From a virus: a DNA stretch of 23,569 nucleotides. A model generated the notes under the pieces. The model searched no databases. It worked only from the letters and a program-made list of their open reading frames with translations, and had not been told where the DNA came from. This document shows, piece after piece, positions 6,504-21,729 of the stretch (positions are counted from its first letter, which is position 1; every line of letters starts with the position of its first letter). The position numbers were made by a program, and so were the translations under genes. The stretch covers positions 1-23,569 of the IMG/VR virus record IMGVR_UViG_3300031772_000291; one strand, given 5' to 3'.

Positions 6504-7448
6504 ATGTTATTAATACAATCGCAACTACTTTCTTTATTGAACAGGGTGCTGAACCAGACGGCATTACTAAGAAAAGGCGGAGTTCAAGCGGTATATCAAT
6601 GTTCATTCTGTCATCATTACAAAAAAAAACTGGAAATCAATCTCTCTACTCAAGAATATCATTGTTGGGTTTGTAATACGGCAGGAAAATCTATAAGAAG
6701 TTTATTTAAGAGACTTCAAGTTGAACAGTCTTATTATCAAGAATTATACAAAATTTTGCCTCCTGATAAGTCTTACAGAAAACCTCAAAACGAAACCGAA
6801 AGTGTAGAAGAGTTTCATACCCTACCTCAAGAGTTTATACCACTATCTATTTCTACAAAATCCTCTTTTGAATATGGAAACGCTTTGTATTATTTAAAAA
6901 GTAGAGGTATAACCAAGTGTGACATTGTAAGATATAACATTGGATATTGTGAACGAGGAGCATATCAACGACGAATAATCATACCATCATACGATAAAAA
7001 CGGAAAACTTAACTTTTTCACTTCGAGAATATATTACGAAACCGAAGGAATATCTAAATACAAAAATCCGCCGTGGAACAGAGACATAATAGGGTTTGAG
7101 TTGTTTATAAACTGGAAACTCCCTATAACATTGGTAGAATCGGTTTTTAATGCTATTACCATAAAACGAAATGCTATACCACTATTTGGAAAAATTTTAT
7201 CTCCCACATTAAAAGAGAGATTAATAGAAAACGGGGTGAGTAGGGTAAATGTTTGTTTGGATAAAGATGCTAAGAAAGATTCTTTGTTGATATGTGAAAA
7301 ATTATTGTCTATGGAAATCGATCCATATTTTGTAGAATTAACCAAAAAAGATCCTAATGAAATAGGATTTGAAAAAATGAACGAATTAATTTCTAATGCC
7401 AAAATGGTAGATTTTTCATTTATAATCAATAAAAAACTAAATTTTTAG
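6504..7448 (+). CDS. DNA primase, zinc-finger plus TOPRIM (T4 gp61/DnaG type)
   Basis: This 314-residue protein has the layout of a phage DnaG-type primase, which makes RNA primers for lagging-strand synthesis with the replicative helicase. The N-terminal zinc finger is C33-x2-C36 ... C54-x2-C57, with the typical KLEINL and YHCWVC surroundings. The core segment RRIIIPSYDKNGKLNFFTSR matches the primase catalytic core. TOPRIM motifs follow: Glu212 in VESVFNA, then LFGK, then Asp253 and Asp255 in CLDKDAKKDS. The ATG at 6504 has no good ribosome site; it lies where the promoter upstream would start transcription, and a GTG at 6546 is the main alternative start. After its TAG stop, a second, diverged copy of the primase C-terminus continues in the same frame. 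No helicase gene is visible in this window. Confidence 0.85.
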   Translation: MLLIQSQLLSLLNRVLNQTALLRKGGVQAVYQCSFCHHYKKKLEINLSTQEYHCWVCNTAGKSIRSLFKRLQVEQSYYQELYKILPPDKSYRKPQNETESVEEFHTLPQEFIPLSISTKSSFEYGNALYYLKSRGITKCDIVRYNIGYCERGAYQRRIIIPSYDKNGKLNFFTSRIYYETEGISKYKNPPWNRDIIGFELFINWKLPITLVESVFNAITIKRNAIPLFGKILSPTLKERLIENGVSRVNVCLDKDAKKDSLLICEKLLSMEIDPYFVELTKKDPNEIGFEKMNELISNAKMVDFSFIINKKLNF

Positions 7449-7598
7449 GATGTGAGTTTATTTCATTGGAAGAAAAAAATGATAAAACTTGACGGCAAAG
7501 ACCCATCTGTGATAGGTTTCAACAGAGTAAATCAGTTGATTAGTAATTCTAAACCGATGGATTTCGCAGAAATGATTACTGCTAAACTGAATTTGTAA
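7449..7598 (+). pseudogene. Leftover second copy of a primase C-terminus
   Basis: Directly after the primase TAG, the same frame stays open for 49 codons to a TAA at 7596-7598. Its product contains KDPSVIGFNRVNQLISN...MDFAEMITAKLNL, which aligns with the primase's own end (KDPNEIGFEKMNELISN...VDFSFIINKKLNF). I count 18 identities over the last 34 residues. The upstream part (DVSLFHWKKKM) also fits the strand before this block in gp61-type primases. A GTG at 7452 or ATG at 7479 could start a small product, but a stranded fragment of another primase allele is more likely. Readthrough of the TAG would give a double-tailed primase; I see no signal for that. Confidence 0.65.
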
Positions 7599-7610
7599 GG
7601 AATATAAAGA

Positions 7611-10600
7611 ATGTTGCTAAATATACTAAATACAAACATCCCAAATTTTACTCATATAATCCATTTGGCCGATATTCATTGCCGTCTTTTAAAACGACAC
7701 GACGAATATGTTGGAGTATTCAATCGGTTGTATGATTCAATAAAAAAAACTCCTGATACTACTGTAATTTGTGTTTTGGGAGATATAGTACATTCAAAAA
7801 CCGACCTCTCTCCTGAATGTGTTCAGTTGGCAAAAGATTTTTTGTATTCTTTATCAGATTTAAGACCAACAATTTTAATTGCTGGAAATCACGACGCAAT
7901 GATTTCTAATAAAAGTCGTTTAGATAGTTTGTCTCCAATCGTAGATGCTATACGGCATCCACAATTATTTTATCTAAAACAATCGGGTTTGTATGCGCTG
8001 GGGAATGTTTTATTCAACAACTATAGTATTTTTGATGACTCCGCTGAAAAATATATTTATGGAAAAGATATACCACAGATATACCGAAATAAATATGAAT
8101 ATTTTGTGGCTCTGTTTCACGGGCCGATCAATAACGCGTTGACAGATTTGGGGTTTGTCGTATCCAATTCATCAACACCTCCCGAAATTTTTGATTACCA
8201 CGATATTGCTTTATTGGGTGATATTCATATGATGCAGGATGTGCAGAGATATAACCTATCAGAAAACATACCAACAGTGCATTACTGTGGATCTCTTATT
8301 CAACAAAATCACGGAGAAACAATTCATTCTCATGGATATTCGTTGTGGGATTTGAAAAGTAGGAGTTATACTCATGTCGATATTCCAAACGATTATGGGT
8401 TCTTTACTGTTTTGATAAACAAAGGACAGTTAGATAGCAGTATAGATAATCTTCCAAAAAAAGTAATATTGAGAATGCAATGTTTTGAATCGGTACAAAC
8501 CGAAGTGAAAGCGTTGTTAACAAAAATTCGATCTCTCACAGAAGTTATAGCAGTTTCATATGTAAGAGTAGAATCCCCCGAAGACAAAAAGTCGTTGACC
8601 ATCGGTGCAAACATACGAATAAACGATTTATCTAACCCAGACTATCAAAATGAACTTTTAGCTGATTATCTCAAAAAAAGAATGGGGGTGGAGGATCAGA
8701 AACTTATAAACCAAGTATTGGTCATTAATAAATTTGTCAACGAGTCGTTAAAGCGGGATGAAACTAACAGAAACATTCGGTGGAGACCAAAAACATTTGA
8801 GTTTGACAATATGTTTTCTTATGGCGAAGGTAATGTTATTGATTTTAGTAAACTCCACAATGTAGTGGGGTTATTCGCCCCAAATACGGCTGGCAAATCC
8901 AGTATATTGTCTGCTCTTTCGTTCTGTATTTTTGATAAATGTGATAGAGAATTTAAAGCGTGTAATATTCTTAACGTCCAAAAAATGGGGTTCAGATGTA
9001 AGTTTAGTTTTGAAGTCGATGGGGTGGATTATTTCATTGAAAGAAACGGAAATGCCGATAAAAACGGAAATGTTAAAGTTAATGTTAGATTTTGGAAATG
9101 TGAAGGTGAGCAAGAAGTCGATCTGAACGGAGAAGGACGTAGAGATACAAACGAAGTTATAAGAGAATATCTTGGAAGTTATGACGATTTTGTATTGACT
9201 ACATTAAGTGTTCAGAACGTTAAGAATGTTGGATCTTTTATTGATATGGGTCATACTGATAGAAAAGATCTACTGGCTCAGTTTATGGGATTGACGGTGT
9301 ATGATCGATTATACAATCAAGCCTATGAGAGATATAGAGAACTATCTGTAATATTGAAACAATACAAAAACGACGACTTTACCAATAAATTAGTCGTTAT
9401 TACTGGGGCTCTGATGCAAGCCGAAAGCGCTTTTAATTCTGAGTCGGAAGACAGTTCCAAAAATGGTGTAGAAAAAGAAGTTGTTCAAAAACGTATTATT
9501 GAAAACTCTCAAGGAATTATAAAACTTGAAGGCAGCATACCTCCGCTCATCGTTTCCGAAAAAGATAAAAAAGATTATCTTCGTGTCATAGAAGAATGCA
9601 CAAGGATGATTGACGACATACAAAGGTTGGTGGAATCGTGTGAAAAAGAGTCGGATGCGTTAGAAATAGAAATTAGAAAGATGGAAGAAATGGATCTGTC
9701 TAAAACACACAAACAACATCAAGATTTAATTTTTCAACGTAGTGTATTACAGACTTCTATAGAAAGAAAAAAGGCTGAGATACGTGGAAGAATCGAGAGG
9801 GTGGAACGAGCTAGAGATTACAAATATAATCCGGAGTGTGAGTTTTGTTTATCTAACGCTAACGTATTAGTAAAAGAGGCGGCTGAATCCCATAACCATT
9901 TAAAACAGGATAAACTTGCTGCGGAACTTCTGGTAGATCAACTCAACAAAATAAAGAAAAATTTGGAAGACGTTGAGTGGGTCGTAAAGATGTATGAGAC
10001 GTATACTCAATCGTTGGAAAAACGAAACAAAGTAAAAGACAATTATATTCGTTATAAAGAACGTCTTGACAAATTCGTTAAAAATTTAGATGAAGCTAAA
10101 AAGAGATTAGAAGCCGTCGAACAGAATATAGATTTATATCAAAAAAATAAAGAATCTATAGAAGTCAATAATAAAATTAATATACAGATTCAAGAAGATG
10201 GGGGCATTTTGATGTTAACTGAGGGAAAGTTGAAAAGAAATCAAAAACTCATCATGGAGCTTAACGGAAAAATCACCGTGTTCAAAACTCAAATCGAAGA
10301 AATCAAACAGAAAATTCAATCGGCAAAACAAATTGAAGAAGAGTATAAATCATACGAATCCTACATTCAAGCAATTAGTAGAGACGGTATTCCATATGAG
10401 GTTATTTCTTCCACTGTTCCTGAAATTGAAAGAGAAATAAACAACATACTAAGCCAAATTGTTGAATTTCACGTTTCTCTTGAAGTTGATGGTAAAAATG
10501 TAGTTCCATACATAGTGTATGATGAAAAGAAATGGGTTATGAGTTTGACGAGTGGATTTGAAAGGTTTGTGTTATCGTTGGCTATTCGTGTAGCTCTTAT

Positions 10601-10823
10601 AAATATATCCAATTTACCACGACCAAACTTTTTGGTAGTTGATGAGGGATTTGGTGTGTTGGATGCCGAGCATTTGCCGTCTGTTCAAACACTATTTTCA
10701 TATCTAAAAACAAACTTTGATTTTATACTGATCGTCTCTCACCTTGATAGTTTGAGGGATATGGTGGATACTCACGTAGAAATAAAGAAAGAAGGCGGGT
10801 TTTCCAGAGTCAATTTTGAGTAA
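7611..10823 (+). CDS. Mre11-Rad50 (SbcD-SbcC, T4 gp47-gp46) fusion, recombination nuclease/ATPase
   Basis: One uninterrupted 1070-residue polypeptide carries both halves of the Mre11-Rad50 complex, which processes DNA ends for recombination-dependent replication. The N-terminal metallophosphoesterase has Asp21 and His23 (LADIHC), Asp58 (LGDIVHS), N93-H94-D95 (AGNHDA), His170 (LFHGPIN), D204-x-H206 (LLGDIHMM) and the Mre11-type CGSLIQQNHGE. A linker near 330-395 leads to the Rad50 ATPase: Walker A GLFAPNTAGKSS with Lys429, two long coiled-coil arms, a zinc hook C743-E-F-C746, the ABC signature TSGFERF near 981, Walker B FLVVDEG with Asp1011-Glu1012, and the switch histidine in IVSHLD. All key residues are present, so it looks active. 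T4 makes the two as separate proteins of 339 and 560 residues. The start is set by AAGGA nine bases upstream. Confidence 0.92.
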   Translation: MLLNILNTNIPNFTHIIHLADIHCRLLKRHDEYVGVFNRLYDSIKKTPDTTVICVLGDIVHSKTDLSPECVQLAKDFLYSLSDLRPTILIAGNHDAMISNKSRLDSLSPIVDAIRHPQLFYLKQSGLYALGNVLFNNYSIFDDSAEKYIYGKDIPQIYRNKYEYFVALFHGPINNALTDLGFVVSNSSTPPEIFDYHDIALLGDIHMMQDVQRYNLSENIPTVHYCGSLIQQNHGETIHSHGYSLWDLKSRSYTHVDIPNDYGFFTVLINKGQLDSSIDNLPKKVILRMQCFESVQTEVKALLTKIRSLTEVIAVSYVRVESPEDKKSLTIGANIRINDLSNPDYQNELLADYLKKRMGVEDQKLINQVLVINKFVNESLKRDETNRNIRWRPKTFEFDNMFSYGEGNVIDFSKLHNVVGLFAPNTAGKSSILSALSFCIFDKCDREFKACNILNVQKMGFRCKFSFEVDGVDYFIERNGNADKNGNVKVNVRFWKCEGEQEVDLNGEGRRDTNEVIREYLGSYDDFVLTTLSVQNVKNVGSFIDMGHTDRKDLLAQFMGLTVYDRLYNQAYERYRELSVILKQYKNDDFTNKLVVITGALMQAESAFNSESEDSSKNGVEKEVVQKRIIENSQGIIKLEGSIPPLIVSEKDKKDYLRVIEECTRMIDDIQRLVESCEKESDALEIEIRKMEEMDLSKTHKQHQDLIFQRSVLQTSIERKKAEIRGRIERVERARDYKYNPECEFCLSNANVLVKEAAESHNHLKQDKLAAELLVDQLNKIKKNLEDVEWVVKMYETYTQSLEKRNKVKDNYIRYKERLDKFVKNLDEAKKRLEAVEQNIDLYQKNKESIEVNNKINIQIQEDGGILMLTEGKLKRNQKLIMELNGKITVFKTQIEEIKQKIQSAKQIEEEYKSYESYIQAISRDGIPYEVISSTVPEIEREINNILSQIVEFHVSLEVDGKNVVPYIVYDEKKWVMSLTSGFERFVLSLAIRVALINISNLPRPNFLVVDEGFGVLDAEHLPSVQTLFSYLKTNFDFILIVSHLDSLRDMVDTHVEIKKEGGFSRVNFE

Positions 10824-10855
10824 TATAACCGCTGGGGACTCATATTTATGGGTAT

Positions 10856-13171
10856 ATGAGTTTAAATTTACTCGATAATACCACAAATAAAGGTGTTCAG
10901 TATAACATTGCGACCAAACAAGTTGATATAGAAGATACTGCATATCTGTCTAATTACTTTATTTTAAACGATTTTAAACCTGTTCTTACCGCTGGAAAAA
11001 ACGCTATTGCTCTAAATGGATCAAATTTGTTAAAACTGGGGTCCGAAATATTGGTTGAATGTACGGATTCGGACGGAAATGCTCTTTATATAGAGATGGC
11101 TAGAAACTCCACTACTCCAACAGGTAAAGCATATAAAGAATCCACATCATACATTTTATCAATACATGTCTATGGAAATACTAAACAGGGTGTGGGGAAG
11201 TTGTATTTGCTTGGAACCACCACTAAAAACCAATCCGTTAGATGGAAAGCAGACGTGACCGTTGATAAAACTCTCAAAAACACATCGAAAGTAAGGTTTT
11301 ATAGTAAACCAACGTTGTCTGTAAGATCCATTTTGATTCCTGTGATAGATTCCACTATTGCAGTATCCCTAAAAAGCACTTTAGTATTGACAGGACAATT
11401 TGATGGTCTTTGTGTCACTCCATCAAGAGACGTGGAAAAATCTACAGTTAATAGGAAAAATGTTGATATTGATTATAGAATTAATAATACAGACAATAGC
11501 ATTACACGATTCACCGACCCCCGATACACATTTAATTCACAAATACAAAACAACAAAGTTTATTTATGGATCGAAAAAATTAAAAAACCATTTTCAAATG
11601 ACGAAATTCCGCCGAGTGGTAGTAACTATACATCATCTCTTCCCGTTAAAAAAATATTAAATAGTAAGACACTCATAGTAGACGATCCGTATTATTACCC
11701 CGACGAAAGAAAAAATAATATATCAACAAACATAGTAGACGGAACGTTTACTATTAGTTATCCTTATATAACTTATTATACAGGATCTACGATATATCAA
11801 GTCACCGTTATCGGTGGCGTTGGCATGGTCGTTAGAAATTCGTATGCTGATATAACATATGAAAACATCAAAACGTTTTCAGGGGTTGTTGCTAGACATA
11901 AAGTATATAGAAAAAGTTTAATATCTCCTGGAGAATTTGATTTAATAGTTGATGAGCCACTATTTACGAACGAATTGTTAAGAAATACCATCACCAATAA
12001 TAAATTTTATGAATATATAGGACGATTTTATAATCAATTTCATATTAATAGATATTGGTTGACAAGTTCGGTGTCTTTTTCTTTGCAACACACTCCAGAT
12101 ATAATGATGGATTCGGTGCAAATAGCTCCGTCCGCCAGTAATTACAATACCGTTGATGGATTCACGTATATGATCGCTAAGAGCGATACTTCCATAACAG
12201 GAACTATCACAAGAGATTCAGCATATCTTCCATATGATAGCAACGAATTTCTTTTGAGTTCGGGATCTAAGTATGATTCAAATTTTATAGAATTGAAACC
12301 CGATGTTCAATACATTTTGTCTACAAATGCTATAATGCACAAAAATGTAAATGAGACTGATGCTAAAATTACATTTTATTTCACAAGTTCCATTCCTGAA
12401 GCGACTCAAGAAAATAACTTTTCTTCTCAATTTGGTATAAAATTGGGGGAACTTAAATTTGAAGACGTTGGTAAGACCGATAAAAACTTTGTTCAAGAAG
12501 AAATGTTTTTGTTTACACCAGCAAATAATTTGTATGGAACGTTAGTCGCTGTTCCATATAGATGTTCTGCTGAATTATATAACGTATCTTTAAGAAATTA
12601 TGGTGATGATGGTGTATCTCCTGATATGTTTACCACAAGATTGCCGTGGGGAGTCAGAACTGCTGGAGAAACCTACGAAATAAAATCCGAACTTTTTGAT
12701 ATTAATTCCAACCTAGTATATTCCAATCTCAGAACTATTGAAAGTTTTGATCCGTCAGGCAGTTCTCTCATTCCATATATTCCTGGAGGAAGTTTAGATC
12801 CATCCACAACAACTTTTATTTCTGGAAGTTTACAAATATCAATGAGCTTGTTGGTTGGTGATGATGCAATCATTACAAACGATTTATATCTGGGAAACCC
12901 GAGCATATGGTCTGCTGCTGTTAATGGTGATAAGAAGCGATTCGCCGGATGGATTGGAGATGCTGGGTTTCAAAGATTTTGTATAACAAATGTTGTTGAT
13001 CTTTATCACGATGATGGTCATATCTATCTAAAGACAGGATCACTAAATTTGTTATCGCTTGATTTTCCTGCTCCAATAGAACGAAAAACTTTAGCGGCAG
13101 AATGGGAATCTACATCGGGAAGAAAAGTATATTGGATAAATGGATCAACGAAAACCGTGGAAAATGGATAA
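10856..13171 (+). CDS. Large beta-rich virion structural protein (putative)
   Basis: This 771-residue protein is rich in Ser, Thr, Asn, Tyr and Val and has no membrane segments, which suits a virion protein built of beta domains. The N-terminal part (about 30-160, with SNYFILNDFKPVLTAGKNA and GSEILVECTDSDGNALYIEM) looks like immunoglobulin-like or jelly-roll strands. A Pro/Tyr-rich middle part and a region near 480-600 (ELKPDVQYILST ... AELYNVSLRNYGDDGVSP) resemble carbohydrate-binding-module sandwiches. No enzymatic motif is seen. It lies 32 bases after the Mre11-Rad50 fusion. The start at 10856 has only a distant GGGG upstream, and an ATG at 10848 gives three codons only. I do not recognise the exact family; a baseplate, neck or fibre protein is plausible. 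Confidence 0.6.
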   Translation: MSLNLLDNTTNKGVQYNIATKQVDIEDTAYLSNYFILNDFKPVLTAGKNAIALNGSNLLKLGSEILVECTDSDGNALYIEMARNSTTPTGKAYKESTSYILSIHVYGNTKQGVGKLYLLGTTTKNQSVRWKADVTVDKTLKNTSKVRFYSKPTLSVRSILIPVIDSTIAVSLKSTLVLTGQFDGLCVTPSRDVEKSTVNRKNVDIDYRINNTDNSITRFTDPRYTFNSQIQNNKVYLWIEKIKKPFSNDEIPPSGSNYTSSLPVKKILNSKTLIVDDPYYYPDERKNNISTNIVDGTFTISYPYITYYTGSTIYQVTVIGGVGMVVRNSYADITYENIKTFSGVVARHKVYRKSLISPGEFDLIVDEPLFTNELLRNTITNNKFYEYIGRFYNQFHINRYWLTSSVSFSLQHTPDIMMDSVQIAPSASNYNTVDGFTYMIAKSDTSITGTITRDSAYLPYDSNEFLLSSGSKYDSNFIELKPDVQYILSTNAIMHKNVNETDAKITFYFTSSIPEATQENNFSSQFGIKLGELKFEDVGKTDKNFVQEEMFLFTPANNLYGTLVAVPYRCSAELYNVSLRNYGDDGVSPDMFTTRLPWGVRTAGETYEIKSELFDINSNLVYSNLRTIESFDPSGSSLIPYIPGGSLDPSTTTFISGSLQISMSLLVGDDAIITNDLYLGNPSIWSAAVNGDKKRFAGWIGDAGFQRFCITNVVDLYHDDGHIYLKTGSLNLLSLDFPAPIERKTLAAEWESTSGRKVYWINGSTKTVENG

Positions 13172-13191
13172 TTATTATATTTATAGATAAT

Positions 13192-14538
13192 ATGACGGAT
13201 AGAGAAGATATTATAAAATATGGAAAACATTTAGCAGATGTCCTTCAAATCGATTTAACCGAATTTTTGGACAATCTATTTAATGAGGGATTTAATGTTG
13301 AAAATGAAAATCTTTTGTTATGTGGAGGAGCTTTTGGACATCTCGCCCATCCATATGAAGATGCTGATTTAACGTTTGATGATATAAAAGAAATTATTAC
13401 GTTAGCTCTTTCAGGTAAGTTAGAAACCTATGAAAAGGTTGATGGTCAAAATCTTATGATTACTTGGAAAGATGGTGGTCTTAGAGCCGCTAGAAATAAA
13501 GGACATCTGAAAAATTCTGGAGAAAATTCTCTCACAAAAGATCAGTTAGATACTATGTTTGCCGATAAACCCGAAAATGTTAGAAAAGCATTTTCAATGG
13601 CTATGGATGATTTATCCGTTACACTATCAAGAATATCTCCACAAACGTTACAGACGATGTTTCAGAATGGAAAACGGTTTATGAATATTGAGGTTCTTTT
13701 GCCTACAACTCAAAACGTTATTCCTTATGGCATGAATATTTTAATGTTCCACGGAATAATAGAATATGATGATGGAGGAAATTCTATAGAGAATGTCGAT
13801 CAAGGTGCTGAAATACTATATAAGATTGTCCAGAGTGTAAACGCGGATGTTCAAAATACATTTACCATCAAGGGGCCAAACAAAGTATTGTTAAGTAAAT
13901 TAAAAGATTTTCCTGAGAAACGAGTTCATTATTTCTCGATGTTAAGTAATATACAAAACGAACTCCATGATGGTGATAAAGTTATAAAATATCATATCAA
14001 AGAATGGCATAAAATAATTATTAACAAAACTAAAGAGTTGGGGTATGAAATTCCCAGTGATATTTTAAATTTGTTGATTGATCGTTGGGCACTGGGGAAG
14101 AAAACCACGAACATATCTCAAGTAACTAAGAAAATAAACAACAATGAATTTGCTATTTGGATAAAAGAGTTTGATAAAAAAGAAGCGGAAAAAACGGCCA
14201 AGAAAATAAATCAACCGTTGGAAAACTTATTTTTAAAACTTGGTGTTGAAGTGTTATTTAACGCATCTGGATTTTTAGCTTCTCAATCAAGCGAATCGGC
14301 TAAAGAAATTGCTCAACACGTTTCTTTGGAAGCTGAAAAAATTCGTAAAAGTGGAGATCCTGAATCGATTAAGAAATTGGAATATGAGCTGGAGAGAATA
14401 CAATCTATAGGAGGATTAGAAAAACTGGTTGGAAGTGAGGGAGTTGTTTTTTATAGAAATGGTAAGATATATAAGTTCACGGGACTTTTTTCACCAATTA
14501 ATTCCATACTTGGTATGATAAAATACCAAAGAAAGTAA
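13192..14538 (+). CDS. Divergent ligase-like covalent nucleotidyltransferase
   Basis: This 448-residue protein carries an ordered set of motifs resembling ATP-dependent DNA/RNA ligases and capping enzymes. Motif I is EKVDGQN with candidate nucleotide-accepting Lys82. An Arg-rich segment LRAARNKG (98-104) follows. A motif III-like FMNIEVLLP has Glu167, motif IV is SEGVVF near 415-420, and motif V is KIYKF with Lys428. A long helical insertion (about 200-400) separates motifs III and IV, far longer than in T4 RNA ligases. The N-terminal GGAFGHLAHPYEDADL block seems peculiar to this phage group. The frame opens earlier at 13102, but I chose 13192 because it lies just after the upstream stop and avoids a 70-base overlap. 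Substrate and product are unknown: end joining, repair and protein or RNA modification are all possible. Confidence 0.6.
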   Translation: MTDREDIIKYGKHLADVLQIDLTEFLDNLFNEGFNVENENLLLCGGAFGHLAHPYEDADLTFDDIKEIITLALSGKLETYEKVDGQNLMITWKDGGLRAARNKGHLKNSGENSLTKDQLDTMFADKPENVRKAFSMAMDDLSVTLSRISPQTLQTMFQNGKRFMNIEVLLPTTQNVIPYGMNILMFHGIIEYDDGGNSIENVDQGAEILYKIVQSVNADVQNTFTIKGPNKVLLSKLKDFPEKRVHYFSMLSNIQNELHDGDKVIKYHIKEWHKIIINKTKELGYEIPSDILNLLIDRWALGKKTTNISQVTKKINNNEFAIWIKEFDKKEAEKTAKKINQPLENLFLKLGVEVLFNASGFLASQSSESAKEIAQHVSLEAEKIRKSGDPESIKKLEYELERIQSIGGLEKLVGSEGVVFYRNGKIYKFTGLFSPINSILGMIKYQRK

Positions 14539-14541
14539 GTT
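14536..14541 (+). repeat. TAAGTT, left copy flanking the GIY-YIG gene
   Basis: This hexamer contains the stop codon of the nucleotidyltransferase gene. The same hexamer recurs at 15235-15240, where it contains the stop of the homing endonuclease gene. The pair may mark the ends of the inserted element. Confidence 0.4.
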
Positions 14542-14544
14542 GTT

Positions 14545-15237
14545 ATGGGGGATGGTATATATAAAACTGAAAATATTATCAACGGAGTTTATAAAATAAG
14601 AAATATTATAAACAACAATTTTTACGTTGGTAGTTGTTCTTCGAAAGGCGGATTTAAAGAAAGATGGAGAAAACACATTCAAACATTAAACGATAATAAA
14701 CATTATAATTCATATTTACAAAATGCTTGGAATAAATATGGAGAAAACAATTTTGAGTTTAGTGTTTTAGAAAAATGTTTTCCTGGCAAATGCTTATCGA
14801 GAGAACAGTTTTATTTAGATACGTTGCATCCAAAATACAATCTATATAAAATAGCTGGTAGTCCTTTAGGTAGAAAGTTGTCGGATTCATCGAAAAATAA
14901 AATATCTATATCGTTAAAAGGACATTTAATGTCTGAAAACACAAAGAAAAAAATATCTATGGCGTTAAAAGGAAAGCTTAAATCAGAAAATCACAAAAAC
15001 AAAGTTAAATCCATTTTGTGGGGGAAAAATGGCAAATTAAGATTAAAATTTGGTGGAGGAAGGTTTTCAGGATACTATGTATTTTTTAACATCATTACAA
15101 AAGAAAAAATTAAATGTGCTAAATTTGAATTAGCAGATAAATATAATATAGATAGATCGTTTGTTTATAGGATGTGTAATGGTAAATCATCATCGTGTAA
15201 AGGATGGGTTTGTTTAAGAAAAGTAGAAAGGAAATAA
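14545..15237 (+). CDS. Free-standing GIY-YIG homing endonuclease with NUMOD repeats
   Basis: This 230-residue protein is a GIY-YIG nuclease like the Seg enzymes of T4. It would cut a related phage genome lacking the gene and so spread by recombination. The GIY and YIG motifs are GVYKIRN and FYVGS, the catalytic Arg is in FKERWRKH, and the catalytic Glu is in LSREQFYLD. Three NUMOD3-type DNA-binding repeats follow (GRKLSDSSKNKIS, GHLMSENTKKKIS, GKLKSENHKNKVK). The C-terminal FELADKYNIDRSFVYRMCNG is a NUMOD1-like helix-turn-helix. The gene is more AT-rich than its neighbours and starts six bases after the upstream stop. It probably inserted between the nucleotidyltransferase and zinc-finger genes, since its last codons now supply the ribosome site (AAGGA) of the next gene. 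All catalytic residues seem present. Confidence 0.9.
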   Translation: MGDGIYKTENIINGVYKIRNIINNNFYVGSCSSKGGFKERWRKHIQTLNDNKHYNSYLQNAWNKYGENNFEFSVLEKCFPGKCLSREQFYLDTLHPKYNLYKIAGSPLGRKLSDSSKNKISISLKGHLMSENTKKKISMALKGKLKSENHKNKVKSILWGKNGKLRLKFGGGRFSGYYVFFNIITKEKIKCAKFELADKYNIDRSFVYRMCNGKSSSCKGWVCLRKVERK

Positions 15238-15240
15238 GTT
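15235..15240 (+). repeat. TAAGTT, right copy flanking the GIY-YIG gene
   Basis: This copy overlaps the stop codon of the GIY-YIG gene and abuts the ATG of the next gene. It matches the copy at 14536-14541, 699 bases upstream. Confidence 0.4.
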
Positions 15241-15864
15241 ATGGCTAGAAGACGTTGGAAAATGGAAGATATTAGAGCTGCACAAGCAGGAGAGCAGCCC
15301 TTTATACAATTTGGTTATGCTCCAGCAGAACCCCCACATCACAAAGTTGGAGATGTATGGATAGATCTTCACGGCGTAAAATGGGAGCAACGAAACGGAT
15401 ACCGACTAAAAGTCAATACACAAGCTAATTCTATTAGAGAGTTGGTCAAAAGAAAGTGTAGAAAATGTGGTATAGATTTAGATGTGTTAGGAGATCATCA
15501 TGACGAAAGTTTTTATAATAAAACGGGATTATGCGCAGACTGCTTAATATTTGATGAGACTACACTGAGAGCATCGGGTAAATATGATGAATACGAAAAC
15601 CGAAAACTTCTCATAAATCAATTATCATTTCTTATAGAGTTGAGAAAAAATACCATTGAAACGATTGAGTATCTGGAAAAAGATGATGCTAAAACAGAGT
15701 GGGTCACTTCACAGGGAGTCATCGTAACGTGGATAGGAAAACAAAACGCCGAAATATTGGAAGGCGCTAAAAAAGATTTGGTAGAAATTGAAAAAGATAT
15801 AAAGATAGCTAAAGAACGGATGGCAATATTAAATGAAAACGTTGCCGATCTAAAAGAAAATTAA
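15241..15864 (+). CDS. Zinc-finger/coiled-coil protein just before the terminase (small-terminase position)
   Basis: This 207-residue protein has a four-cysteine zinc site, C73-x2-C76 and C98-x2-C101, enclosing GIDLDVLGDHHDESFYNKTG. Before it is a compact segment (VGDVWIDLHGVKWEQRNGYRL), and after it about 85 residues of heptad-like helix, probably a coiled coil (115-205). AAGGA lies about nine bases before the ATG, and the stop is one base before the terminase ATG, so the two are surely co-translated. In T4 the gene just before the large terminase encodes the small terminase gp16, which has a central coiled coil and oligomerises on DNA. Position and coiled coil suggest a similar partner role, but a zinc finger is not a known gp16 feature, so this is only a hypothesis. 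Confidence 0.6.
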   Translation: MARRRWKMEDIRAAQAGEQPFIQFGYAPAEPPHHKVGDVWIDLHGVKWEQRNGYRLKVNTQANSIRELVKRKCRKCGIDLDVLGDHHDESFYNKTGLCADCLIFDETTLRASGKYDEYENRKLLINQLSFLIELRKNTIETIEYLEKDDAKTEWVTSQGVIVTWIGKQNAEILEGAKKDLVEIEKDIKIAKERMAILNENVADLKEN

Positions 15865-15865
15865 T

Positions 15866-18586
15866 ATGGCAGAACAACCAAATCTAAGAGATATAATTAA
15901 GCAAGAAATTAAGAAATGTGTGGTTGACCCTGTATATTTTATGAAGAAATATGTAAAAATTCAACACCCCCACAGAGGAACAATACCGTTCGACCTTTAT
16001 ACATTTCAGGAAAGTACATTACAAAATTTTGCAGAAGATCGTTTTACTTTAATTCTCAAATCCCGTCAGATGGGCATCACAACTTTAGTAGCTGCCTATT
16101 CCTTGTGGTTAATGATATTTAATAGTGATAAAAACATTCTTATCATATCCATTAAACAGGAAGTATCCAAGGAAATCATCACCAAAGTCCGTTTTGCGAA
16201 TGATCATCTTCCATCATGGTTAAAAGTTCCAGCGACGACGGATAACCTATTATCTTTAAGATTACGGAATGGTTCTCAGATTAAAGCTACTTCGTCATCA
16301 AAAGATGCCGGGCGATCTATGGCTTTGAGTTTATTAGTTCTTGACGAAGCGGCCTTCATTGACGATATAGAAGACATCTGGACATCGGCGTTTAATACAC
16401 TGTCTACGGGTGGCCGAGCCATAGTTCTCTCGACGCCTAATGGTGTCGGCAATTGGTTTCACCAAAAGTGGGTGGAAGCGGAACGTAAGAAAAACGACTT
16501 TAAAACAATTGTTCTTCTTTGGAGCCTTCATCCAGACCGAAATCAATTGTGGAGGGATGAACAGGATAAACAGTTGGGTATGAAAAAAGCAACACAGGAA
16601 TGCTTTAGTGGAAATGTAATAGTTTATACTAAAAGTGGACCTAAAAAAATATCTGAAATTTCTGTGGGTGACAATGTATTAACTCATAATGGAAAATATA
16701 AACCCGTCACACATACTTTTAGAAAACTATCAAAAGCTTATAAAATATCTTCAAATAATAATTTTTTAGAAAAGTTTGTGACAAAAAATCATCCATTCTT
16801 AACAGACGATGGGTGGAAGGAAGTGGGGAAATTAAAAAAAGATGATTATATTTTTACATTTCCAATCAATATTGATATTTTTCAGCAAACCAAAACTACA
16901 TTAGATTTATATTCTATTGTTAATCCTAAATACTTTTCTAAAATATTATGTGATGATGATCAAAGATTTTATATTAACGATAGAAAACACAAAACAATTC
17001 ATAATAGATACATTTCTGTTGATTATAAATTTGGGTATTTGATAGGATTATATTTAGCAGAAGGAAGCGGATGCCGATTAAGGAAAGTATTTAATTTTAA
17101 TTATGAAAAAGAAATAAATGGTTGGCCAAAAACATTAAAAGAAATAGTTAAAGATTTATTTAAGTTTTCAAATAATCAAATAAGAAATCTTGGTAATACG
17201 GGACATTTGAGTTTTTGTTCTGAAATATTTTCTTCTGTTATTGATTGCTTCGTGCGTGGTGATGATTGTTATAACAAGCAATTAACATCATTTGCTTATG
17301 ATGTTATGAATAAAGAATTTGCTAAAGGTATAATAGATGGCGTATTTCGTGGCGGCGGATGTTTAAAAAAGGAGTATTACAAAACTATATCAACAACAAG
17401 TCAGAATTTAATTTATGACGTTTCCTATTTATTAAATTTATTATCTATAACAGATTTTTCAATCAGACATATGGTTGGTGGTAATGAAGGCGTGATAGAT
17501 AATAGAAAATTCATTTGTAGTGATAAGTGGGAAATAAAAATTAGAAAAACTAAAAACGTCGAAGTGAAGGAATTGTCTGATATATTAACATTATCCAATT
17601 TAAACATTTCAAATATAAACCTTAATAATGTATGCATAGATGTTGAAGTGTTTAATCTCGGCGTGGAAGACGACCATTCGTATATAACAGAATATGGTAT
17701 TGTTCATAATTGTGATTGCAATTTCTTGACATCAGGAGCCAGTTTAATAGATTTGATGACCCTTAAATGGTATGAGGAGAATCAAGTAAAAAACCCCATT
17801 GAAATGAGAATGGGAAACACGTTATGGATATTTTCTCCTCCTGATTATACTAAAGATTATATTGTTTGTGCTGACGTGGCTAGGGGAGACGGTAGTGATT
17901 TTTCGGCCGCCCACGTATTTGACGCCGAAACTATGGAACAAGTGGCTGAATATCAAGATCAAGTGGGAACAAAAGAATATGGAAACATTCTCGTATCTCT
18001 CGCTACGGAATACAATGACGCGCTTCTTATAGTAGAAAGAGAAAACATTGGTTGGGCAGTATTACAAGAAATTATTAATAGAGAATATAAAAACACTTTT
18101 TATTCTTCTTCCGATCTAAAAATTGTGGATGTTCACCGCCAACTAAAAAACAAATATCTAAGCGAAGACCGAAAAATGGTTCCTGGATTTTCAACCAATG
18201 TAGGAACACGGCCGTTGATAATAAATACAATTGAAAAATATTTTAGGGAAAAAACCCCCACCATTCATTCTATTCGTGTTATAAACGAACTAAAGACATT
18301 TATATGGGAAAGAGGAAAACCGCAAGCAGCGCCTGGCTATTTTGATGATTTAGTAATGTCTTTGGGACTTGGACTGTGGGTCAGAGATACGGCATTAAAA
18401 TTAAGACAAGAGGGAATATTTTTAACAAAAAGTATGTTAGATAAAATCCGAGTGCCAAAGGCTCCGGATGGTCCGGCACCTATTTATAGTTCTACCGGTG
18501 CGCATAGCGTTGGTAGAGATTATTGGAAGATGAAAGTTGGAGCTAATAAAATAGAACCATCGGAAGATCTGACTTGGTTATTGTAA
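15866..18586 (+). CDS. Terminase large subunit (T4 gp17 type) interrupted by an intein
   Basis: This is the DNA packaging motor ATPase and headful nuclease; the 906-residue precursor should splice to about 536 residues. The ATPase domain has Walker A LKSRQMGITT (64-73), Walker B LLVLDEAAF with Asp160-Glu161, and the coupling motif STPNG (189-193). The RNase H-like nuclease domain has an Asp in CADVARGDGSDFS, a Glu in IVERENIGW and a C-terminal acidic pair in GYFDDLVMSLG. The intein spans residues 246-615; joining the flanks gives ATQE-CDCNFLTSGASL, a normal terminase sequence between the two domains. T4 gp17 has 610 residues, so the spliced form is somewhat short. It follows the zinc-finger gene by one base. 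Without splicing, ATPase and nuclease would be separated and probably inactive together. Confidence 0.95.
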   Translation: MAEQPNLRDIIKQEIKKCVVDPVYFMKKYVKIQHPHRGTIPFDLYTFQESTLQNFAEDRFTLILKSRQMGITTLVAAYSLWLMIFNSDKNILIISIKQEVSKEIITKVRFANDHLPSWLKVPATTDNLLSLRLRNGSQIKATSSSKDAGRSMALSLLVLDEAAFIDDIEDIWTSAFNTLSTGGRAIVLSTPNGVGNWFHQKWVEAERKKNDFKTIVLLWSLHPDRNQLWRDEQDKQLGMKKATQECFSGNVIVYTKSGPKKISEISVGDNVLTHNGKYKPVTHTFRKLSKAYKISSNNNFLEKFVTKNHPFLTDDGWKEVGKLKKDDYIFTFPINIDIFQQTKTTLDLYSIVNPKYFSKILCDDDQRFYINDRKHKTIHNRYISVDYKFGYLIGLYLAEGSGCRLRKVFNFNYEKEINGWPKTLKEIVKDLFKFSNNQIRNLGNTGHLSFCSEIFSSVIDCFVRGDDCYNKQLTSFAYDVMNKEFAKGIIDGVFRGGGCLKKEYYKTISTTSQNLIYDVSYLLNLLSITDFSIRHMVGGNEGVIDNRKFICSDKWEIKIRKTKNVEVKELSDILTLSNLNISNINLNNVCIDVEVFNLGVEDDHSYITEYGIVHNCDCNFLTSGASLIDLMTLKWYEENQVKNPIEMRMGNTLWIFSPPDYTKDYIVCADVARGDGSDFSAAHVFDAETMEQVAEYQDQVGTKEYGNILVSLATEYNDALLIVERENIGWAVLQEIINREYKNTFYSSSDLKIVDVHRQLKNKYLSEDRKMVPGFSTNVGTRPLIINTIEKYFREKTPTIHSIRVINELKTFIWERGKPQAAPGYFDDLVMSLGLGLWVRDTALKLRQEGIFLTKSMLDKIRVPKAPDGPAPIYSSTGAHSVGRDYWKMKVGANKIEPSEDLTWLL
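16601..17710 (+). mobile_element. Intein with LAGLIDADG endonuclease domain in the large terminase gene
   Basis: This 370-residue protein splicing element removes itself from the terminase precursor. It begins with Cys246 in block A (CFSGNVIVYTKSGPKKISEI). Block B has Thr and His in KFVTKNHPFL. It ends with HSYITEYGIVHN, with Asn615 preceded by His614, and the following extein residue is Cys616: all canonical for splicing. Between lies a LAGLIDADG homing endonuclease. Its first motif, LIGLYLAEGSG, keeps the acid Glu399. The second, GIIDGVFRGGGC, has Gly497 where relatives usually have Asp (GDG), so DNA cleavage is probably lost. The endonuclease part is more AT-rich than the terminase. Confidence 0.92.
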
Positions 18587-18666
18587 AGGGTGTAGTAAAA
18601 ACCACATTATATGTGTGTAAGTTAGTATTTATTAGTGTGTAAAATTGTATAAAAAGGAAACAAAAT

Positions 18667-21600
18667 ATGGCATCACCCATGAGACCGGAAGTTAGACCAG
18701 ACGAAGAAGTTGACGTAAAGCAGAAATCTTTGTTTGCAAGGTTAAAAAGATTATTTGCGTCTGGAGTAGTCGTTCGAAATATCGGTGGTAAGAAACTCAA
18801 GGTCAAAGATACTAGCGACTTGATGTATGCCACGGATAGAAATAGCCTTCGTGATCGATACAACAGAGTAAGATCCACTGGTTATAACGCTTACACCAGA
18901 GATTTCGCACTTTCCTATCAAGCCGCTAGAATTGATTTGTTCAGAGATTATGATTGTGTTGGACCAGATACTATCATTCCGTTGCCTGATGGTTCCAGAC
19001 CAACTATCAAGGAATTGACTGAAAAATACAAAGATAAACCACAAGAAAGATTTTTGGTATATTCATATGACCATGAAACAGATTCCATTAAGTTAGGAAG
19101 GGCGTATCATCCTAGAAAGAAGGGCGGTGGTACCAGAGAGGGATTTAAAGTTACACTCGATAATGGGCAATATGTTATTGGGAGTATTAAACATCCGTTT
19201 TTGATGCGAGATGGCACATATAAGCGAATCCTTGAACTTGAAGTTGGGGATTCGGTGATGCCGTTTTATCAACATGAATATGGTTATAAAAAGAATGGCA
19301 TTAAACCTTATAGAAAGGTTTATAATTTTTCGAAAGGATACCAATCAGCACACAAAGTTGTGGCCGAACAATTTTATCGACCACTCGAAAAAAATGAGGT
19401 GGTACACCACAAAGATTTTAACGGGTTTAATAATTCTCCCGAAAATTTACAAATAATGGATAGGAAAAAACACGATGAATTTCATTCTAACCACAGTAAA
19501 AATATAATATGGGGGGAAGAAAATTACGAAAATCAATTCAACAAGTTGAAATCTCACCCAAACTATATTGACCGAAAGTTTCATCGTTGGAACGGTGAAC
19601 GACAAGGTGAAAATAATCCGTTTTTCGGTAAACAACATTCTGATGAATCAAATGAAACGAGGTCGAAAACTCTTAAAGAAGTGTTTGTTAATAGAGATCA
19701 AAATGGAGATAAGAATCCAAAATATCGTGATGATTTAACCATTGAAGTATTGAAGGTTCGAGCGTCAGAACATTATAAACAAAATGGAAAATTAACTTCT
19801 TGGAGCCTTGTAAAAGATTTGGGGTGTGGTTATTCCGTTCTTCAAAACCGTTTAAAACAAAATAATACAAACTGGAAATCTTTTAAAAATGAAGTGATAT
19901 CTACACTTAATCATAAAATAGTATCAATAGAACATATTGGACCATTGGAAGTTTATGATGTTACCGTAGAGGAGTATCATAATTTTGCCACTGATAGTTG
20001 TTTCGTGAAAAATACTATGGACATGGACCCTATTGTAGCTTCTGCATTAGATATTTACTCCGATGAATGTCTAACTAATAACGAAATGGGTAAAATGTTA
20101 ATTGTGGCTTGTGATGACGATAACATTAAAGGAATTCTTTATAACCTCTTTTACGATATTCTCAATGTGGAATTTAATATGTGGTCTTGGACCCGAAATA
20201 TGTGTAAATATGGTGATTTTTATCTTCGACTTTATATCTCTCCTGAATATGGAGTATATCAGGCCGAACCAATTTCATCTTATAATGTAGAGAGAATAGA
20301 AAACTCCGATCCGCTAAATAAAAACTATGTAAAATTTCAGCTCAGACCTACTGATACATCTCAGGTCGAGACTTTGGAATCGTTTGAATGCGCTCATTTT
20401 AGACTGCTTTCCGATAGTAATTTTTTACCCTATGGTAAAAGTATGATCGAAGGTGGCCGTAGAGTGTGGAAACAACTTTCTTTAATGGAGGACGCTATGT
20501 TAATCCACAGAATTATGAGAGCCCCTGAGAAAAGAATTATCAAGTTGGATGTAGGAAATATTCCTCCAAACGAAGTTGATTCTTTTATGGAAAAAACCAT
20601 GAATCAAATGAAGAAAGTTCCCTATATTGATGCCCAAACAGGTGATTATAATCTACGTTTCAACATGCAAAATATGGTAGAAGATTTCTATTTGCCGGTT
20701 CGTGGATCTGATAGCGGAACTTCCATTGATACTTTGAGTGGTATGGAGTTTACGGGTATTGATGATATTGAGTATCTTCGTAATAAATTCTTGGCAGCTC
20801 TTAAAATTCCGAAAGCTTTCTTAGGATATGAAGAAGAACTTTCTGGAAAAGCTACTTTGGCAGCCGAAGATATTAGATTTGCCCGAACTATTCAAAGAGT
20901 TCAGAAAATCCTTGTGTCGGAATTAGAAAAAATCGCCATCGTCCATCTATATTCTCAAGGATACAGAGACGAAAGTTTGGTAAAATTCTCATTGCAACTT
21001 ACGAATCCGAGCACGGTATTTGAAAAAGAAAAAATTGATATTTGGTCTAATAAAGTTGATGTTGCTAAGGGGATGATGGAAAACAACCTTTTTCCAAAAC
21101 AGTGGATATATAAACATTTATTTAACCTTTCGGATGATGATGAGAAGGAACTACTTGATCACATCATCGAAGACGCTAAACAAACGTGGAGAATCACGAC
21201 CATTCAAGAAGATGGAAATGATCCGGCTAAACCTTTTAAAAAAATAAACCCTGATAAAGAAACTGGGGGCGCACCTGCCCCAGGCGGCCCAGCGGGTGAA
21301 ATGGGGGGAGGGGCAGGAGGTCCAGAGGCCGGTCCAGAGAAAGAATTAACAGCAGCATTAGGCGAGCCGAGCGGCCCACCAGCAGGAGAATTAAAAGAAG
21401 TAGATTCTATTGAAGAAAAGCACGGTGAACATGCTAAAAATTGGAAAAGGCCGTCTCAAAAAGGAGAGAAAAACGCTAGAGATTATCCGTTTGGTGAAGA
21501 TCCATTAGGAAGTTTAGAAAATAATGCTGATTATTCTACAGAAAGAAATCCAAATCATAAATATAAAAATGATTCTCCTTTAAGTTTGGAATCCATTAGT

Positions 21601-21729
21601 CGTAGTCCATTAATTAAAAGTTTAAAGGGGTATTTGGATGCTCATGAAAGTAAAAAAATTCTTCGTGAACAAAAAAAAGACATAACTGTACCATCTTTGT
21701 TGGATGAATCAAATATAATAGAGGAATAA
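18667..21729 (+). CDS. Portal protein (T4 gp20 type) interrupted by an intein
   Basis: This protein forms the dodecameric portal ring at the capsid vertex, through which the terminase threads DNA. The 1020-residue precursor should splice to about 667 residues. Flanking the intein, RIDLFRDYD and TMDMDPIVASALDIYSDEC join to the typical start of gp20-like portals. Later portal segments include WSWTRNMCKYGDFYLRLY, FLPYGKSMIEGGRRVWKQL, the stem-like HRIMRAPEKRIIKLDVGN, and LAALKIPKAFLGYEE. The C-terminus (from about 867) is a Gly/Pro/Ala-rich stretch of about 40 residues, followed by about 110 hydrophilic residues; T4 gp20 has only 524 residues, so this tail is an extension. The start is supported by AAGGA about eight bases upstream. 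A 5-bp hairpin lies in the 80-base gap before it, without a T-run. Confidence 0.93.
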   Translation: MASPMRPEVRPDEEVDVKQKSLFARLKRLFASGVVVRNIGGKKLKVKDTSDLMYATDRNSLRDRYNRVRSTGYNAYTRDFALSYQAARIDLFRDYDCVGPDTIIPLPDGSRPTIKELTEKYKDKPQERFLVYSYDHETDSIKLGRAYHPRKKGGGTREGFKVTLDNGQYVIGSIKHPFLMRDGTYKRILELEVGDSVMPFYQHEYGYKKNGIKPYRKVYNFSKGYQSAHKVVAEQFYRPLEKNEVVHHKDFNGFNNSPENLQIMDRKKHDEFHSNHSKNIIWGEENYENQFNKLKSHPNYIDRKFHRWNGERQGENNPFFGKQHSDESNETRSKTLKEVFVNRDQNGDKNPKYRDDLTIEVLKVRASEHYKQNGKLTSWSLVKDLGCGYSVLQNRLKQNNTNWKSFKNEVISTLNHKIVSIEHIGPLEVYDVTVEEYHNFATDSCFVKNTMDMDPIVASALDIYSDECLTNNEMGKMLIVACDDDNIKGILYNLFYDILNVEFNMWSWTRNMCKYGDFYLRLYISPEYGVYQAEPISSYNVERIENSDPLNKNYVKFQLRPTDTSQVETLESFECAHFRLLSDSNFLPYGKSMIEGGRRVWKQLSLMEDAMLIHRIMRAPEKRIIKLDVGNIPPNEVDSFMEKTMNQMKKVPYIDAQTGDYNLRFNMQNMVEDFYLPVRGSDSGTSIDTLSGMEFTGIDDIEYLRNKFLAALKIPKAFLGYEEELSGKATLAAEDIRFARTIQRVQKILVSELEKIAIVHLYSQGYRDESLVKFSLQLTNPSTVFEKEKIDIWSNKVDVAKGMMENNLFPKQWIYKHLFNLSDDDEKELLDHIIEDAKQTWRITTIQEDGNDPAKPFKKINPDKETGGAPAPGGPAGEMGGGAGGPEAGPEKELTAALGEPSGPPAGELKEVDSIEEKHGEHAKNWKRPSQKGEKNARDYPFGEDPLGSLENNADYSTERNPNHKYKNDSPLSLESISRSPLIKSLKGYLDAHESKKILREQKKDITVPSLLDESNIIEE
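18955..20013 (+). mobile_element. Intein with HNH endonuclease domain in the portal gene
   Basis: This 353-residue intein begins with Cys97 (CVGPDTIIPLPDGSRP) and ends with NFATDSCFVKN, Asn449, followed by extein Thr450. Block B is IGSIKHPF, with Ser in place of the usual Thr. The residue before the terminal Asn is Lys448, not the usual His. The endonuclease is of the HNH type: VVHHKDFNGFNNSPENLQIM with His247-His248 and Asn255-Asn256, and a further His269. NUMOD-like DNA-binding segments follow (GENNPFFGKQHSDESNETRS, then WSLVKDLGCGYSVLQNRL). It is unrelated to the LAGLIDADG intein in the terminase gene, so the two inteins arrived independently. Confidence 0.9.

Follow-up and report, generated by a model that had tools for sequence, protein, structure and literature searches.

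The window (the whole stretch of 23,569 nucleotides that was analysed) is a 23.6 kb viral record with undefined ends from a T4-like phage, as judged by its portal and terminase exteins, which match Portal_T4 and Terminase_6N, respectively. A GIY-YIG gene is followed, within a span of 5.5 kb, by two inteins, one interrupting the large terminase and one, of HNH type, the portal (Table 1). The earlier note had read three homing endonuclease families in this span, and the assignment holds: the GIY-YIG domain scores above the Pfam cut-off, the HNH domain matches HNH_3, and the LAGLIDADG domain of the terminase intein, weak in Pfam, is supported by hhalign against relatives with a probability of 95–97%. 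The three elements are no chance reading of ORFs. A second assembly (L082) matches positions 13525–18545 of the window at 99.96% over 5,021 bases; it includes the GIY-YIG gene and the terminase intein and ends before the portal intein. The two assemblies show two differences in total, both within the terminase intein and both protein-changing.

Table 1. Features of the packaging-gene locus in the window.
Feature	Coordinates	Strand	Length	Remarks
Free-standing GIY-YIG homing endonuclease gene	14545..15237	+	230 aa	N-terminal catalytic domain and NUMOD3
Gene between GIY-YIG and terminase	15241..15864	+	207 aa	Without family match
Large terminase N-extein	15866..16600	+		ATPase domain; terminates in KKATQE
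Terminase intein	16601..17710	+	370 aa	LAGLIDADG type; site T245 (E^CDC)
LAGLIDADG motif 1	17039..17065	+		LIGLYLAEG; acid Glu154 retained
LAGLIDADG motif 2	17333..17359	+		IDGVFRGGG; codon 17354-17356 GGC = Gly252, Asp in relatives
Large terminase C-extein	17711..18586	+		Nuclease domain; starts with CDCNFL
Portal N-extein	18667..18954	+
Portal intein	18955..20013	+	353 aa	HNH_3 and NUMOD3; site P96 (D^TMDMDP)
Portal intein HNH core	19399..19449	+		VVHHKDFNGFNNSPENL; intact
Portal C-extein	20014..21729	+		Portal_T4

The product of the gene between GIY-YIG and the terminase is possibly the small terminase, judged solely by its position. In L221, which is free of GIY, the counterpart of this gene sits 18 bp past its upstream neighbour. 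Elsewhere in the window, a single 1070 aa ORF (7611–10823) fuses SbcD-like phosphoesterase and SbcC-like ATPase halves, and positions 2281–5139 encode a large structural-type protein with FG-GAP repeats and, by eye, two dockerin-like calcium-loop stretches.

The GIY-YIG ORF matches the Pfam GIY-YIG family above the cut-off (1.1e-7), the group I intron endonuclease model TIGR01453 (5e-28) and the catalytic domain of I-TevI in the PDB (3e-13), and the equivalents of Arg27 and Glu75 of I-TevI are retained. Its NUMOD3 match lies at the cut-off (20.4 bits), indicating that a modular DNA-binding region is present. By domain content the gene is a putative homing endonuclease, for which site-specific cleavage is predicted. 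It begins 6 bp past the stop of the preceding gene and ends 3 bp ahead of the following start. As a search for a group I intron gave no Rfam match anywhere in the window and the gene lies between two intact ORFs, it is, as far as tested, free-standing and outside any such intron. L014 and L108 carry a GIY gene in the identical slot, and the L014 gene is the nearest relative found (60%).

The junctions of the terminase intein fall between E and CFSGN and between VHN and CDC, and the element has the features of a class 1 intein (Cys1, a TxxH block B with the sequence TKNHPF, a His-Asn end and Cys+1). The intein_Cterm model matches above its cut-off. The LAGLIDADG domain scores 15.9 bits in Pfam, under the cut-off of 22.5, and an AlphaFold model of the intein was unusable (pLDDT of 36). 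Motif 2 has Gly252 in place of Asp in both of the available variants (the window and L082), so that an acid is present in only one of the two motifs. The Asp is kept by the aligned intein in NrdA of Tenacibaculum phage PTm1 and by those in the L012 and L175 terminases. LAGLIDADG enzymes need one acid per motif; the terminase intein is therefore predicted to be non-cutting, and its nuclease is probably catalytically dead. The LAGLIDADG intein described in the earlier note thus stands as an intein and probably as a member of this family, but its nuclease is degenerate. L082 is the only relative of this intein among viral contigs, and in named phages the matches were confined to remote Hint proteins, among them NrdA and polymerase. 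With no close relative in the collections besides L082, its arrival cannot be dated. A degenerate middle member is an addition to a known kind of arrangement.

The junctions of the portal intein fall between D and CVGPD and between VKN and TMD. This element too has the features of class 1 (Cys1, block B SIKHPF, an Asn end and Thr+1), with Lys rather than His as the penultimate residue. The intein_Nterm and intein_Cterm models both match above their cut-offs, and Pfam gives Intein_splicing at 7e-13 and HNH_3 at 1.4e-7 within the intein. The H-H-N catalytic core is intact in the window and kept in 41 of the 43 sequences of this intein; one sequence has lost it and one has another HNH type. In L215 (1874–3148) the portal intein occupies the usual site and the HNH_3 nuclease is swapped for a different HNH type.

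Relatives were collected via the host genes, both inteins and the GIY gene, and their insertions were then mapped. The main sites are covered in 98 loci, all of them metagenomic assemblies. As these were partly picked by the element queries, base rates were taken instead from the loci found with host genes only, in which the portal intein is present in 15/129, an element at terminase site 247 (T247) in 5/121 and the GIY gene in 2/69. Among the 98 loci, 58 are empty, nine have the portal intein alone, four GIY alone and three the T247 element alone; mixed states also occur. On the host-protein tree, the portal intein requires 19 changes for 40 carriers, GIY eight changes for eight carriers and any terminase element 14 changes for 15 carriers. 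The side-by-side trio, which had been called unusual, is rare overall but recurs within the clade: L088, L108 and L195 combine GIY and the portal intein with other terminase elements. Terminase and portal elements co-occur above expectation as a trend only (2/6 versus 9/111, Fisher p = 0.10; independent pairs 6.3 to 1.0, median p = 0.125), an excess compatible with a degree of cooperation, or just with lineages rich in inteins. Terminase elements lack an intact nuclease in five of 15 cases beside a portal intein and in none of four without one; the cases are too few, and more frequent nuclease loss where two elements coexist is not claimed.

The portal intein of the window is 83% identical to its closest counterpart, that of L175, and the host proteins of these two phages share 63% identity, whereas the closest intein-carrying hosts (74–76% host protein) have portal inteins of 60–70%. 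A tree that groups the window intein with that of L014 is rejected (p-AU of 0.0004). The portal intein therefore groups with phages that are remote by host protein and is incongruent with its host, and since the nearest GIY relative is in L014, the two elements differ in their nearest relatives. The independent arrivals proposed in the earlier note are borne out here: the elements occur singly, they are scattered on the host tree and the portal intein is incongruent with the host. The three elements are not a unit and were probably acquired separately.

We consider it likely that three homing elements arrived separately at three sites of a hotspot in the packaging genes, and that the terminase nuclease has since decayed while the portal HNH nuclease has stayed intact. 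On co-infection, each element would cut the unoccupied site of a related phage (the terminase intein would have done so formerly), recombinational repair would copy the element in, usually with little flanking DNA, and the inteins would then splice out of the host protein. The clustering would arise because conserved sites are numerous in the terminase and portal and not because of joint travel.

The view that essential, conserved packaging genes are good targets is supported. Across the relatives and the window, terminase elements lie at five positions in host numbering (161, 190, 245, 247 and ~298); site 161 is at Walker B, site 190 at STPNG and site ~298 ahead of ADVARGDG. Site 245 is occupied in the window only, two codons from T247. 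The portal is interrupted at 96, near 110, at 229 and at 372–380, and neighbouring gaps in relatives house other free-standing nuclease genes. In Microcystis phage Mel-JY01, an isolate, the terminase is normal in length and no gene separates it from the portal. Group I introns were considered for the terminase gaps of the relatives; there was no Rfam match. These gaps can be read as split inteins, and in most cases a nuclease-like ORF separates the two halves. In the L108 type, this ORF may be of the kind labelled EDxHD. L088 (8130–8660) and L108 (8136–9338) have the same split terminase intein with halves that are 95% identical; the nuclease ORF is present in L108 and absent from L088, which suggests a recent loss or gain. 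L190 has a portal ORF of 1943 aa (7701–13529) that reads as four inteins, the third of which seems to begin with Pro and not Cys or Ser at the junction, and a LAGLIDADG intein in the terminase on the same contig.

The density of intein sites in the terminase and portal of this clade is unusual, with some sites two codons apart, and the inteins that occupy them are partly contiguous and partly split and carry different nucleases. Mycobacteriophage TerL likewise has inteins at several sites at functional motifs of one terminase (PMC5050341); some of these sites are one residue apart, and portal inteins are also known (PMC5050341). The present case differs in the T4-like clade, in the sites, in the use of adjacent positions by contiguous inteins and split ones and in the simultaneous interruption of the portal. 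The T247 and T161 elements of the relatives resemble the atypical split inteins AceL-TerL and GOS-TerL (PMC11766414), which are also in TerL: their N-half is short and their C-half is ~110 aa long, a likeness of layout; the window terminase intein is unlike them in being contiguous and of LAGLIDADG type.

Near-identical elements in diverged host genes allow repair tracts to be measured without a cross, and the clade provides a natural experiment on the open question of whether neighbouring homing elements cooperate. The measurements come from pairs of relatives, none from the window itself. The portal inteins of L180 and L181 differ at 5/1056 positions, and the first flank mismatches occur 10 bp upstream and 9 bp downstream; over 1 kb, 33% of upstream and 25% of downstream positions are mismatched. 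The T161 split intein and its nuclease in L195 and L216 show 12 mismatches in 1,533 bases, with flanks that diverge within ~10 bp of the element and terminase flanks mostly at 72–81%. The GIY genes of L060 and L088 are 96–99% identical over the first 600 bp and less so beyond; the upstream flank is weakly or not alignable, and the similar stretch extends into the next gene. L185 and L186 are an exception: divergence starts 13 bp upstream, and the 1,000 bp of downstream sequence that were compared are free of mismatches, which may reflect a tract that ran at least 1 kb to one side or an assembly chimera. Repair tracts thus usually leave neighbours behind, as near-identical elements of two types sit in flanks that diverge within ~10 bp, and long tracts may happen. 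The suggestion that the repair tract of one endonuclease carries its neighbours along does not describe the usual outcome in relatives, where solo moves are seen, and keeps some footing in L185/L186. The measured tracts add to a kind that is itself known.

These footprints of ~10 bp outside two element types argue against block movement here. An HEG-island, a model published for other phages (PMC10448857), would here comprise the nucleases and the intervening packaging genes as one composite block that moves together, the nucleases aiding their neighbours; in the published islands the cargo is >90% identical in otherwise dissimilar phages. The present locus resembles the HEG clusters and islands of that study in that nucleases of several families surround essential genes, the terminase among them, and in contents that vary between relatives. 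The weak co-occurrence excess and the L185/L186 pair would also agree with such a block. However, the pattern is reversed here: the cargo stays behind, elements up to 99% identical enter host genes of 70–80% identity singly, and they are seen alone and in many mixtures, so that cargo and nucleases are not conserved as one block. Compared with three intein-free relatives, L108 has private differences clustered in the 500 bp upstream of the terminase element, followed by a stretch free of them; further on, ahead of the portal site, they reappear as a second cluster and as isolated positions. Its terminase and portal inteins thus lie in separate patches, with the difference-free stretch in between, and do not derive from one uniform tract. 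For the relatives a composite block is largely refuted, and for the window we regard it as unlikely.

A narrower form of cooperation would have the dead terminase intein mobilised by its live neighbours, through repair of a GIY-YIG or portal HNH break across the intein. The intein with its degenerate motif 2 does lie between two intact nucleases, 1.4 kb from the GIY-YIG gene upstream and 1.2 kb from the portal HNH downstream, and tracts of ~0.5 kb (L108) and at least 1 kb (L186) occur. In T4, the nrdB intron with its defunct I-TevIII is mobilised in trans by MobE (PMC2988022); there too a defunct element lies beside an intact nuclease, the parallel here being one of sequence state. Most measured tracts are nevertheless of ~10 bp, the terminase intein is in no second phage, so that no transfer event is seen, and decay after a single arrival explains the dead intein equally well. 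We judge mobilisation improbable. Equally so is a guild of three in which the dead intein would persist and spread only through conversion by the flanking intact nucleases, the middle member being a passenger that is perhaps tolerated since repair would be hindered by a third break at such close range. Separate acquisition followed by decay is preferred, in line with the neighbouring MCM inteins of Haloarchaea (PMC10643990), which are adjacent and have separate histories, with co-homing unsupported; those are two active inteins in one gene, and here mixed families occupy two genes and a free-standing gene.

The GIY-YIG gene could instead be a domesticated packaging nuclease. In several phages it lies directly ahead of the terminase genes, and HNH genes adjoining some terminases offer a precedent (discussed in PMC10448857). 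Its scattered distribution, with as many changes as carriers and absence from most relatives, and its recent horizontal transfers, which break off sharply on the upstream side, make this highly improbable, and we retain the homing gene. Among relatives (L012 at 6805–7596 and 10597–11427, L176 and L177), a second free-standing GIY-YIG gene lies between terminase and portal and a NUMOD3 gene past the portal. In L014 (6045–6998), L002 and L199, an inserted gene for a PARP-like ADP-ribosyltransferase (Pfam match run on the L014 gene) separates the small ORF from the terminase.
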